Shown: in pieces, positions 52,723 to 60,522 of the stretch
How the letters are laid out: the number at the start of each line of letters is the position of its first letter
Numbering within the stretch: the first letter of the stretch is position 1
Assembly (NCBI RefSeq): GCF_017308985.1
Contig: NZ_JADWPE010000003.1
Coordinates: 558,001 to 622,000 of the forward strand
Direction of reading: 5' to 3'
Length of the DNA stretch: 64,000 nucleotides
DNA from: Lysobacter changpingensis
Lineage (GTDB): Bacteria; Pseudomonadota; Gammaproteobacteria; Xanthomonadales; Xanthomonadaceae
Translations under genes and position numbers: made by a program
The notes under the pieces: generated by a model
Told to the model about the DNA's origin: nothing
Seen by the model: the letters and a program-made list of their open reading frames with translations, nothing else
The model's database searches: none

Positions 52723-52794
52723 CCCTTGTAGCCCTTGTAGCCCTTGTAGCCCTTGTAGCCCTTGTAGCCCTTGTAGCCCTTGTAGCCCTTGTAG
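52723..52794 (+). repeat. Tandem 9-bp repeat, eight perfect CCCTTGTAG copies
   Basis: Eight identical units without any mismatch, running directly into the REP-like element so that the last unit forms its left edge (TGTAGCCCGGG). The unit equals the outer end of the REP element plus CCCT. Perfect identity suggests recent slippage growth, so the copy number may vary between strains. Confidence 0.95.
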
Positions 52795-52873
52795 CCCGGG
52801 TAAGGCCGCAGGCCGCACCCGGGATGACGCGCCGCCGACCGTCCCGGGCGCGCTTCGCTTACCCGGGCTACAA
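52789..52873. repeat. REP-like CCCGGG element, inverted pair
   Basis: Left arm TTGTAGCCCGGGTAAGGCCG and right arm GCGCTTCGCTTACCCGGGCT. The left arm carries the GGCCGCAGGCC variant instead of GCGAAGC, so the inner stem is imperfect. It ends 14 bp from the DUF3228 gene stop. Confidence 0.85.
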
Positions 52874-56036: not shown

Positions 56037-56135
56037 TTGTAGCCCGGGTAAGGGCGAAGCCCGCAGCCGGGTGCACTCAACGTCGATGCTTGCGGGAAGG
56101 CCAACCCGGGTGCGCTTCGCCTACCCGGGCTACAA
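56037..56135. repeat. REP-like CCCGGG element, inverted pair (first of two)
   Basis: Left arm TGTAGCCCGGGTAAGGGCGA and right arm TGCGCTTCGCCTACCCGGGC. A 35-bp spacer separates them. Followed after 22 bp by a second pair in the same order. Confidence 0.88.
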
Positions 56136-56157
56136 ACTGGCTGAAAGTCACCGCCCT

Positions 56158-56256
56158 TTTTGCCCGGGTAAGGGCGAAGCCCGCACCCGGGATGCGCCGA
56201 GCGATAAGGCGGCGGCGACGTTGACCCGGGTGCGCTTCGCTTACCCGGGCTACAAA
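56158..56256. repeat. REP-like CCCGGG element, inverted pair (second of two)
   Basis: Left arm TTGCCCGGGTAAGGGCGAAG and right arm TGCGCTTCGCTTACCCGGGC, with the outer TGTAG lost on the left. It may have arisen by duplication of its neighbour with a different spacer. Confidence 0.88.
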
Positions 56257-57237: not shown

Positions 57238-57471
57238 TTACGGCTTGGCGTCCTTCGGCGGGTTTGGGTCGTTCCCGTAGCTGTTGCTGCCCTGGATCTT
57301 CCCGTCCCTGCCGTGCTCCACGACTTCCACCTTGTCGCGGCGGCCCATGTCGCGGGCCTCGTGCATCGCCGCTTCCTTGGTCGAGTGGAGCGAGCTGGCG
57401 CGCTCGCCGCCTTCCCGCTGGACCGCCCAGCCGCCCGCGTGCGGAACCACGTGGATGTCCTTCTTGGTCAT
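57238..57471 (-). CDS. DUF2188 family protein
   Basis: A 77-residue protein matching DUF2188: KKDIHVVPHAGGWAVQREGG, SLHSTKEAAMHEARDMGRR and a tail VVEHGRDGKIQGSNSYGNDP. Function unknown; often annotated as general stress-related. The ATG at 57471 follows AAGGAGG. A perfect palindrome lies 19 bp upstream. Confidence 0.9.
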   Translation of the reverse strand: MTKKDIHVVPHAGGWAVQREGGERASSLHSTKEAAMHEARDMGRRDKVEVVEHGRDGKIQGSNSYGNDPNPPKDAKP

Positions 57472-57508: not shown

Positions 57509-57662
57509 TCACCCGCAGGATCGCGCAGATGTGTCTCAAGTAGTGCGTTTGTGGGGTGCTGCGGTATCAGAAGAAGTCGGGGGCGCGGGGCGGCGATCAG
57601 GTGGAGGCGAACAGGGGCGGTTTGTTCAAGCCCCGCGTCTGGCAGTGGGCACGTCTGCTGTC

Positions 57663-57693
57663 GATGGGTTTCGCTTTGCTCAACCCATCCTAC
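57663..57693. repeat. REP-like GATGGGTTTCGC element
   Basis: GATGGGTTTCGCTTTGCTCA then ACCCATCCTAC. The layout, an inverted GATGGGTT/AACCCATC around a CGCTTTGCT core ending in CCTAC, mirrors the CCCGGG family and looks like a sister family. It marks the downstream end of the dGTPase gene block. Confidence 0.75.
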
Positions 57694-57705
57694 GCGCTGA
57701 TTCGC

Positions 57706-58062
57706 TCAGAAAGGGATGTCATCGTCTTCGCGCCTTAACACAGATTGGCGAACCGACTCAGGTAACGGAAGATTGCAGACAATGAATAGATTGAGGATGT
57801 CATCACGATCCATAAACATCACTTGGCTCCTTTTGGACGCATCAAGCTTTCCGCCCAACCAGTTTCTCGCCTGCTTAGTAATCACCCCTCCCGCCACGAT
57901 GAAAGCATGATCGACAAGCACGCGCCTGCTTGTCTCGGGATCGAACACCTCGTGCCCCAGCATCATCAAAGCTTGGTTAGACCTGTACTCAAAATGCTCG
58001 GCGTCGCCGATGACCATCTCGGCCAGCTCTCGCAGGTTTCGGCTCTTGAACTTCATCCTCAC
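57706..58062 (-). CDS. Short protein related to restriction-endonuclease-like domains, probably truncated
   Basis: A 118-residue protein. Residues 1-30 (KFKSRNLRELAEMVIGDAEH, FEYRS) recall the start of AbiJ-NTD-type proteins. Residues 38-100 (HAFIVAGGVITKQARNWLGG, then SQVMFMDRDDILNLFIV) recall the C-terminal half of REase-like sensor domains. The middle part that carries catalytic residues is absent, so this may be an internal-deletion product or a novel short form. The DNA is AT-richer than the flanks. It is third in the dGTPase/nucleotidyltransferase unit, 51 bp after the second gene. The assignment is from memory and tentative. Confidence 0.6.
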   Translation of the reverse strand: MRMKFKSRNLRELAEMVIGDAEHFEYRSNQALMMLGHEVFDPETSRRVLVDHAFIVAGGVITKQARNWLGGKLDASKRSQVMFMDRDDILNLFIVCNLPLPESVRQSVLRREDDDIPF

Positions 58063-58113
58063 ACCCTAAAGAGAAACGCCGAGCAGACCTCCGTCACACC
58101 CTGCACCACCCAA

Positions 58114-59028
58114 CTAAGACGCACGTAGCTGCCTTTGCAATGCGAGATCCAGCTGTTTCCACGAAGCCCCATCCCCACGATGGGCCAGCTCCGAAGTTGC
58201 CGCCGCAAAGCGCTGATCCACCGTTGCTTCTTGACGCATTCCTGACAAAGCAAAAAGACGATAGACAACGGGCTCTATCACGGTATTTCCGTAGCTACCG
58301 AGCTCCGCCTTCTGGAGTTCTTCAAGGGAGTACAGGGTTGTGCATCGTTCAAGATAGGCAACCGCAGTGCGCCCCACACTCTTTGCATCTTTAGACGAAA
58401 GATGTCTAAAAACCCGAACAGCCATCCCAAGTGGGTTTGGATTCTGCTCGAGAACGATGTCGAGTGATCGATCACGTAGCTCTTCTAAGTACGTCGGCCC
58501 GCATATGAAGCGCTTCGTCCTCCAATCCATAAGGATTGCGTCCCAGTTCAGGACCGTTGTCTTTGTTAACGATTCGACTCCCGAGTAAGCAACCAGCCCC
58601 TGTCTGATTGCCCAAGTTTCCTCAGCATTCCAGATATCTATTGGCCACTCACCTGCATAGAGCCGGTATCCCCCGAACTTGTTCTTGCGTGCACCAAGGT
58701 GCTCGAGGTAAGCGGCAAAGTACTTCCAGTCACCTTCAACGACAATGTCAACGTCCGAGTTGAATCCCTTTCTCCCAAACAGCGCCAAGTCACGCAGCAT
58801 CCCGCCGAAGAGATAGATCTCTCCAACGGGAAGGGACGCCGCGAGAAAGTCGATGAATCCCGTAAGGGTTGACTGGGGAATTGGAACATCAGACCTTCCC
58901 ATCTCTAACTGAAGAGGCAACTCCTGCTGCTTTGGATCGCGCGCCAGCTTTGCACTGCTAAATAGACGCCGAACTCGCGCGCGCAAGATTTCCAGCGACC
59001 CAGCCGATTTCACGGTTTCAACTTGCAT
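58114..59028 (-). CDS. Nucleotidyltransferase-fold protein (poly(A)-polymerase head-like)
   Basis: A 304-residue protein. Residues 65-135 hold the Pol-beta-type nucleotidyltransferase core: IYLFGGMLRDLALFG (Gly75-Gly76, Arg79-Asp80), NSDVDIVV (Asp92/Asp94) and a third acidic residue Asp131 (WPIDIW), so catalysis is likely intact. The order GG..RD..DxD resembles CCA-adding enzyme/poly(A) polymerase heads, but the rest, an all-helical C-terminus, does not match tRNA nucleotidyltransferases. It may add nucleotides to an RNA or protein. It overlaps the upstream dGTPase gene by 11 bp, which indicates a joint function. Confidence 0.78.
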   Translation of the reverse strand: MQVETVKSAGSLEILRARVRRLFSSAKLARDPKQQELPLQLEMGRSDVPIPQSTLTGFIDFLAASLPVGEIYLFGGMLRDLALFGRKGFNSDVDIVVEGDWKYFAAYLEHLGARKNKFGGYRLYAGEWPIDIWNAEETWAIRQGLVAYSGVESLTKTTVLNWDAILMDWRTKRFICGPTYLEELRDRSLDIVLEQNPNPLGMAVRVFRHLSSKDAKSVGRTAVAYLERCTTLYSLEELQKAELGSYGNTVIEPVVYRLFALSGMRQEATVDQRFAAATSELAHRGDGASWKQLDLALQRQLRAS

Positions 59029-60385
59029 TGGCTAAGCTCTTAAGTTCCCTATGCCTCTTTAGAAGATAACTTTCCGTCATGCCAGAAACCGTGTCACAGA
59101 TCAGCTGCCGCTTGTCGAAATCCGACTTCGCTGATGACTCGTAAACACGCCGATAGTTCTCCGACACGGAGCCGTAGACGTAGCGTCCAAACGGACACGT
59201 TCCTTTATCGCCATCATCCAACGAGTCCCATAGCATATCCATCGTCGACTGGATGTAGTTGTGCCCCTGGAGCTCCAGACGCAGCACTTCGCGATGCTGA
59301 AATCCATAGCGACGATCGAACGTCTTAACAACCTTGCAGAACTGGCCTACGTCTGAGGCTTTGATCAACTCGAACCCAGGATCCGGCTCGCCCGACATGA
59401 TCCTCCCCAGGTTAGCGACGAAGGCCTCCGTCGCAGCCTGCACCATCCTAGATATAGCGATCGCCCTGAAAACCTGCATTGAGACATCGTTGAGTTCGCG
59501 AGAACTCAATGAGGCCTGCTTGAAGGAGAGGTTCTCTGCTCTCGCACGACTGATAATGTCCTTTGATACAGGATCGTCCGCCTCACTCTCGATGAAATCC
59601 ATGAGGTCGTAGAATGAGGCGCAGGCCTTCTTCACTGTGTCCTCAGCGTCAATCACTGAGTAAGCAATGTCATCGCATGCCTCCATAACAACTGTCAGCG
59701 GATGGCGCACTCCCGGCAACAGCCCTGTGTGGGTCCAGACTTCATCCGCTATTGCTTTTTCGCTACTGAACACGCCCCACTTCTTGTAGCCCATTCGATC
59801 CTCGCCGTAGACGACTGGATACTTGATCAAAGCCGCAAGCGTGCCGACAGTCAGATTCAGCCCGAAATCGTCATTCAGAACCTGCAAGCGGGTGAGCAGT
59901 CTGAATGTCTGAGCATTTCCGTCAAACTTCAGGAAGTCCGCCTCGATTTCCATACCATCGCGCTCAGCCAAGGCGCGGAACCAATCCTGCATCGACGCCT
60001 CACCCTGATGACCGAAAGGCGGATTTCCCAGATCATGGGCCAAACCCACGGCCGCGAGTAGCGCCGGCACGTTCCGCTTTACCTTTAGACGCTCATGATC
60101 AGGACCGAACACTTCTTCGGCGTGATCAAACGCCAATCTCATGCCGATACTTCTCGCCAGATTGCTGACTTCATGCGAGTGAGTCAGGCGCGTCCTGACG
60201 GAATCATGCTCCTCCATTGGGAAGACTTGCGTTTTGTCAGCGAGCCTCCTCGTGGGAGCAGCAAAGAGAATGCGGTCGTAGTCGCGCTCAAACTCTTCGC
60301 GCCCGACGGCCGTCCCGAGGGACCTGGTCTTACCAGCGATTGCCTTCCGCCTTGATCCATTCAAAAGCTTTTCCCAAATCAACAT
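59018..60385 (-). CDS. dGTPase-like HD-domain deoxynucleotide triphosphohydrolase
   Basis: A 455-residue HD-superfamily protein. Metal ligands are intact: His69 (RLTHSHEV), His117-Asp118 (GLAHDLGNPPFGHQG) and an Asp at 238/239 (ACDDIAYS). The DRILFAAPTRRLADKTQVFP start and NPPFGH loop are those of class 2/3 dGTPases, which split dNTPs into nucleoside and triphosphate. Length and overall order resemble E. coli Dgt. Base use is AT-richer than in neighbours. Some dGTPases defend against phages by depleting dNTPs. Co-expression with the nucleotidyltransferase (11-bp overlap) suggests an accessory, perhaps defensive, operon rather than housekeeping. Confidence 0.88.
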   Translation of the reverse strand: MLIWEKLLNGSRRKAIAGKTRSLGTAVGREEFERDYDRILFAAPTRRLADKTQVFPMEEHDSVRTRLTHSHEVSNLARSIGMRLAFDHAEEVFGPDHERLKVKRNVPALLAAVGLAHDLGNPPFGHQGEASMQDWFRALAERDGMEIEADFLKFDGNAQTFRLLTRLQVLNDDFGLNLTVGTLAALIKYPVVYGEDRMGYKKWGVFSSEKAIADEVWTHTGLLPGVRHPLTVVMEACDDIAYSVIDAEDTVKKACASFYDLMDFIESEADDPVSKDIISRARAENLSFKQASLSSRELNDVSMQVFRAIAISRMVQAATEAFVANLGRIMSGEPDPGFELIKASDVGQFCKVVKTFDRRYGFQHREVLRLELQGHNYIQSTMDMLWDSLDDGDKGTCPFGRYVYGSVSENYRRVYESSAKSDFDKRQLICDTVSGMTESYLLKRHRELKSLANAS

Positions 60386-60480
60386 AGCGCCTCCCTTGTC
60401 CTTGCTGTCTCGGCCGCATCACCTGCAACCTTCCGTCTCGACTCGTGCACCTAACCACTTGTCACATCACTTATAGCGAA

Positions 60481-60503
60481 AGGCCCGCGTGTTCGCGGGC
60501 CCT
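60481..60503 (-). terminator. Rho-independent terminator of icmF
   Basis: On the minus strand, GGCCCGCGAACACGCGGGCC then TTTCGC. The stem is 8-9 bp, ending 20 bp past the icmF stop. It isolates icmF from the dGTPase unit. Confidence 0.8.
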
Positions 60504-60522
60504 CCAAGGTCGTGAGACTGAC

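Follow-up and report, generated by a model that had tools for sequence, protein, structure and literature searches.

Two overlapping genes lie on the minus strand of a 64,000-nucleotide stretch of Lysobacter changpingensis DNA (the window), within a low-GC insert (57510–60520, no strand assigned) between the end of icmF and a DUF2188 gene. The upstream gene, cloA (59018–60385, 455 aa), encodes a Clover dGTPase effector, assigned by its match to Salmonella CloA and by its residues; the downstream gene, cloB (58114–59028, 304 aa), encodes a Clover nucleotidyltransferase (NTase) predicted to synthesize the dinucleotide p3diT. Both frames are open and intact with 11 bp in common, and cloA comes first on the same strand, which is the single-operon arrangement by which Clover is recognized. 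An initial annotation had pointed to the overlap and to the intact catalytic residues of both proteins, and both observations hold. A third open reading frame (ORF) of 118 aa (57706–58062, minus strand), placed outside Clover, carries the two ends of a 326-aa plasmid protein.

Clover is an anti-phage system described in a July 2025 preprint (Yamaguchi et al., 2025; PMC12265719), in which Nicastro et al. (2023) are credited with first noting the two genes; our literature search gave no further paper on the system. In that account, CloA is a dGTPase that forms a dTTP-activated octamer, CloB makes p3diT, a suppressor of CloA, the pair protects against phage, and loss of CloB is toxic. According to the mechanism reported there for the Salmonella and E. 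coli systems, phage enzymes raise dTTP, which occupies an allosteric site at the interface of CloA protomers and turns on dGTP hydrolysis, and the drop in dGTP restricts phage growth. In an uninfected cell, CloB joins two thymidine nucleotides to form p3diT, which occupies a CloA site adjacent to the dTTP site and spares the cell from poisoning by raising the threshold for dTTP (PMC12265719). The initial annotation knew of no described system with this exact pair, a statement now superseded by the preprint, and an undescribed two-gene system was dropped as an explanation once the pair had been matched to Clover. Its broader suggestion of defense and nucleotide signaling was the right kind of function for a pair that reads, by sequence, as Clover.

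The window dGTPase matched the Salmonella CloA structures 9p8s and 9p8t over nearly its full length with 501 bits, and 9p8u and 9p8v with 494 bits (the data statement of PMC12265719 prints 8P9S–8P9V); the best non-CloA dGTPase, 2pgs, scored 174 bits. It is 52% identical to CloA from E. coli H5, where the two genes have the same order and also overlap (L061). More general models were also matched, with 284 bits for the dGTP triphosphohydrolase family TIGR01353 (NCBIfam, cut-off 152) and 245 bits for the PADLOC dGTPase model. The PADLOC score would suit a stand-alone anti-phage or housekeeping dGTPase that sits beside an unrelated CCA-type NTase, but we consider this explanation extremely improbable: the protein scored 319 of the 439 bits for PRK01096 and 190.5 of the 400 bits required by the NCBIfam antiphage_dGTPase model (NF041026), and the pairing with the NTase is kept in 45/45 loci (see below). 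Single-gene anti-phage dGTPases such as Shewanella SpdGTPase (PDB: 9p8w) share the HD dGTPase fold and catalytic residues with window CloA, which differs from them in its score (96 bits to 9p8w), its CloB partner, and its Clover signal pockets. A protein search of 12 genus genomes found a dGTPase in one, the window's own, and no second copy; a core chromosomal Dgt of the genus, a grouping that the initial annotation would have taken as evidence against its reading, was excluded on the same count.

Residues were compared in a table of CloAs in which 36 of 47 rows were used, with six non-Clover dGTPases as controls. Ten rows were left out because the ORF was 430 aa or shorter (L009, L021, L023, L038, L039, L043, L054, L055, L056, and L058) and one, L020, because it is a copy of L022. 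Window CloA keeps 7/7 catalytic residues of the HD motif and HE dyad (H69, H117, D118, H126, E129, D238, and D239) and 10/10 p3diT-pocket residues, including the base readers D37, N75, and Q311. Of the dTTP-pocket residues it keeps 8/9, with T432 in place of the main-chain contact A444; of the switch residues, 2/3, with S417 in place of Q427; and of the oligomer contacts, 1/2, with Y259 in place of H263. The preprint and H5 CloA agree in residue and number at all but one of the 41 positions tested; the exception is 377, which is E in 36/36 CloAs and is printed as Q in PMC12265719. Seven residues (R34, Q127, N181, Q311, Q172, K256, and N420) are each present in 34 to 36 of the 36 CloAs. The controls mostly carry other residues there, but the Haliscomenobacter control shares R34 and Q172, and E. 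coli Dgt shares N181; R38, R314, R47, and T449 are common to most or all controls, so these pocket residues do not discriminate. A maximum-likelihood tree placed the 36 CloAs together without the six controls (support 95), and window CloA fell into a 13-member group with H5 CloA that was weakly supported (63). From the conserved residues we infer that dTTP and p3diT would be the two signals of the window pair, with the same mode of action.

CloB is more diverged than CloA, with 33% identity to H5 CloB over 202 columns and a greater length (304 versus 276 aa). The NTase head residues G75, G76, R79, D80, D92, D94, and D131 are all present; D92, D94, and D131 fit the CloB active-site pattern [D/E]h[D/E]..h[D/E]h and are invariant in 46/46 CloBs, as are G75, G76, R79, F118, G119, G120, and W133. 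Profile matches were below threshold (Pfam NTP_transf_2, 20.2 of 21 bits; PolyA_pol, 13.5 of 23 bits), and NCBIfam NF041569 scored 11 bits against a curated cut-off of 1440. AlphaFold2 predicted a CCA-adding-enzyme-like fold for CloB (mean pLDDT 87.8), and the model matched 46 PDB structures (E ≤ 0.001), namely CCA-adding and tRNA-processing enzymes plus 3aqk, 3aql, and 3aqm, whose titles read “bacterial protein” and which we take to be E. coli poly(A) polymerase. TM-scores were 0.32–0.47, so the likeness to CCA-type folds is partial. CloB therefore shares with class II CCA-adding enzymes and poly(A) polymerases the GG..RD..DxD head and some of the fold, but it falls under the PolyA_pol cut-off and has a dGTPase beside it in all 45 loci examined. 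The predicted fold indicates that CloB is a CCA-type enzyme turned to signaling, as PMC12265719 shows for relatives. The initial annotation had proposed that the NTase senses or modifies RNA or the HD enzyme; p3diT is instead the expected product.

Relatives of the NTase were rare in genome samples at three taxonomic levels, all counts including the window's own genome: 2/398 in the order; 4/398 in the phylum, three of them judged true; and 7/369 in the class, four of them judged true. Set aside were G444 from the phylum sample, a 473-aa ORF that by eye resembles a CCA-type enzyme, and three weak matches from the class sample with E values between 2.7e-4 and 7.5e-4: G899 (907 aa), G1009 (916 aa), and G1011 (443 aa). 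A pattern scan of one genome per species across 84,980 species yielded 39 loci. An initial genome-contig scan with a single sequence gave 132 stretches and a scan of viral contigs gave 78, with none confirmed in either, and a tblastn search of phages found nothing. In all 45 loci examined that have a related NTase, a dGTPase match lay directly upstream on the same strand; 44 of these loci are distinct, since L020 and L022 represent the same contig. The pair was also present in three additional loci (L108–L110). The dGTPase match was partial inside the contig in L039, L054, and L055 and cut by or at contig ends in L023, L038, L056, and L058. Chance neighbors were dropped as an explanation on this evidence; the conserved pair that the initial annotation had proposed, together with a search across genomes, is borne out by homologous pairs that are widespread.

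In L009 (7075–9054) and L021 (7462–9720), the CloA match is split between frames, and in L043 (814–1843), it covers the first 50 residues only; the cloB frame is open in all three. Decay in this direction is what a CloA that is toxic on its own would predict, but the search was baited with CloB and is therefore biased. CloB relatives with an upstream dGTPase match were also seen in Planctomycetota, including Gemmata, and in a Campylobacterales metagenome-assembled genome (L058, L059, L039, and L056), groups that are absent from the summary sentence of PMC12265719 save as proteobacteria broadly. The Gemmata CloA (L059) is without Q311, N420, and Q127. A recurrent four-gene order was seen in five loci, where cloA is immediately preceded on its own strand by DUF5131 and TcmP genes (L004:4439–6457, L032:4475–6512, L035:4409–6457, L036:2848–4866, and L042:4318–6401). 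Neighboring genes were scanned in 37/39 loci (132 ORFs), of which 127 were run against PADLOC and Pfam and five left out (four of L050 and one of L059). Many were housekeeping genes, and the defense-model matches comprised a type II restriction enzyme, methyltransferases, CARF-RtcR, Aga_Helical-REase, and the DUF5131/TcmP candidates; the scan had no matched control, so we make no claim of enrichment.

The third ORF corresponds to residues 1–28 and 237–326 of the enterobacterial plasmid protein, and because both ends are kept and approximately 208 internal residues are missing, it is an internally deleted remnant. Its strand, its position approximately 50 bp after cloB, and its similarly low GC (51.9%) would be compatible with a three-gene system, but that arrangement is very improbable given the internal deletion. 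Moreover, the other loci compared contain no significant match to the ORF, nothing similar follows cloB in six close relatives (L022–L027), and the full-length gene adjoins VapBC-type genes rather than Clover in both plasmid loci read. Among 197 family genomes, it occurs in one, the window's own. No match to PADLOC, NCBIfam, or PHROGs was found, the sole Pfam match (NagA_N) was below threshold at 13.3 of 27 bits, and, at the limits applied, neither Pfam nor PADLOC matched the full 326-aa protein. The endonuclease-like features that the initial annotation saw here left no endonuclease signal in any of the four databases, and that identity was dropped for the internally deleted ORF. On its sequence, we regard the third ORF as a passenger remnant and not a Clover partner.

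The base composition of the pair sets it apart from positions 1–57000 of the window. Its GC of 53.7% (54.0% for cloA and 53.1% for cloB) lies below both the minimum (63.8%) and the mean (68.4%) of 548 windows of 2272 bp from that range; GC at third codon positions is 64% and 56%, respectively, compared with 77–92% in seven other measured ORFs. In 0/11 genus relatives did 57510–60520 give a blastn match longer than 60 bp (E up to 1e-5), and the flanks of the insert match on both sides in one of them (L098); icmF itself is present in 12/12 genus genomes. A search for a sigma-70-like promoter for the pair found none, with 1.1 expected by chance. Composition and synteny together indicate that the pair was transferred horizontally into a variable site that lies downstream of icmF, so the low GC and horizontal acquisition that the initial annotation put forward are both upheld.

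A scan of ten proteins at the icmF site from 8/11 genus relatives (all of L091–L101 except L091, L094, and L101) found a different set of genes in each: an AAA_21 ATPase like NsnB (L092), a piece of an AAA_21 gene (L095), Mrr-type restriction genes (L099 and L100), and zeta-toxin (L096), ParA-like (L093), NUDIX-domain (L098), and CAAX-protease-like (L097) genes. Another genus of the family has a diverged Clover (41% CloA, 28% CloB) at the same site (L011), followed by a Shedu gene (540 bits, PADLOC SduA), a SEC-C gene, and a HEPN-domain gene. This CloA lies outside all others except L059 in the tree, so the window and L011 Clovers were probably acquired independently. In this family, the 3′ end of icmF is a variable insertion site whose occupants differ between genomes and include Clover, Shedu, Mrr, AAA_21, and zeta-toxin genes, among others (L011, L091–L101, and window 57510–60520). 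The DUF2188 gene that adjoins the insert (57238–57471, minus strand) matches a PADLOC candidate model (PDC-S16, 105 bits) and has an 81% identical counterpart near icmF in one genus relative, G276. A family of 80–100 bp repeats occurs at window positions 52791–52871, 56039–56136, and 56162–56256 and at several places in relatives.

The L011 type of Clover (L011:8501–10815) recurs in two further genera of the window's bacterial family (L108:5009–7275 and L109:4853–7113), and this sub-clade has a remodeled signal pocket. All three of its CloAs carry the substitutions N181R, Q311D, L174Q, and T25I; N181, Q311, and T25 contact p3diT, and L174 is a switch residue (PMC12265719). The three CloBs co-vary with this pocket, each with N116T, T138S, W139Y, T158V, and P197K (window numbering) at positions that are otherwise near-invariant. 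The sub-clade retains both the dTTP site and the catalytic aspartates of CloB. A more distant relative, L110, retains N181 and Q311 and has R34 changed to K and Q172 to G; G1151 (E 5.3e-4) was set aside as a weak match in the search for further members. These changes hint, tentatively, that Clover is not tied to one signal and that the dinucleotide that restrains CloA in the sub-clade may differ from p3diT; a counterpoint is a distantly related Xanthomonas CloB that also makes p3diT (PMC12265719) and that may lie inside or outside the sub-clade. The window pair could likewise be a Clover relative whose CloB makes another signal, as the low CloB identity to H5 and the capacity of a related CloA pocket to change would allow. 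We consider this unlikely because window CloA, unlike the sub-clade, keeps the classical pocket with every p3diT-contact residue, and p3diT is the reported product of the distant Xanthomonas enzyme.

The window pair is very probably a Clover anti-phage operon, cloA-cloB, that would work like its Salmonella and E. coli counterparts and that arrived horizontally downstream of icmF. Gene order, catalytic residues, both CloA allosteric pockets, and the CloB catalytic aspartates are as in Clover, and this residue-level agreement supports the predicted function with high confidence; the pair differs from the tested H5 pair in CloA and CloB identity, in the longer CloB, and in its place beside icmF. 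We counted against this assignment the low CloB identity, the changes at A444, Q427, and H263, residue 377, the weak support for the H5 group, and the lack of a sigma-70-like promoter match. The locus is an intact, diverged copy, newly located, of a system that was already described. A previously unexplained gene pair is thereby assigned to a system with a known mechanism, adding an intact diverged Clover that keeps its signal-contact residues at a site with different genes in each relative examined, and the related sub-clade would make the question of whether Clover uses signals beyond p3diT directly testable.
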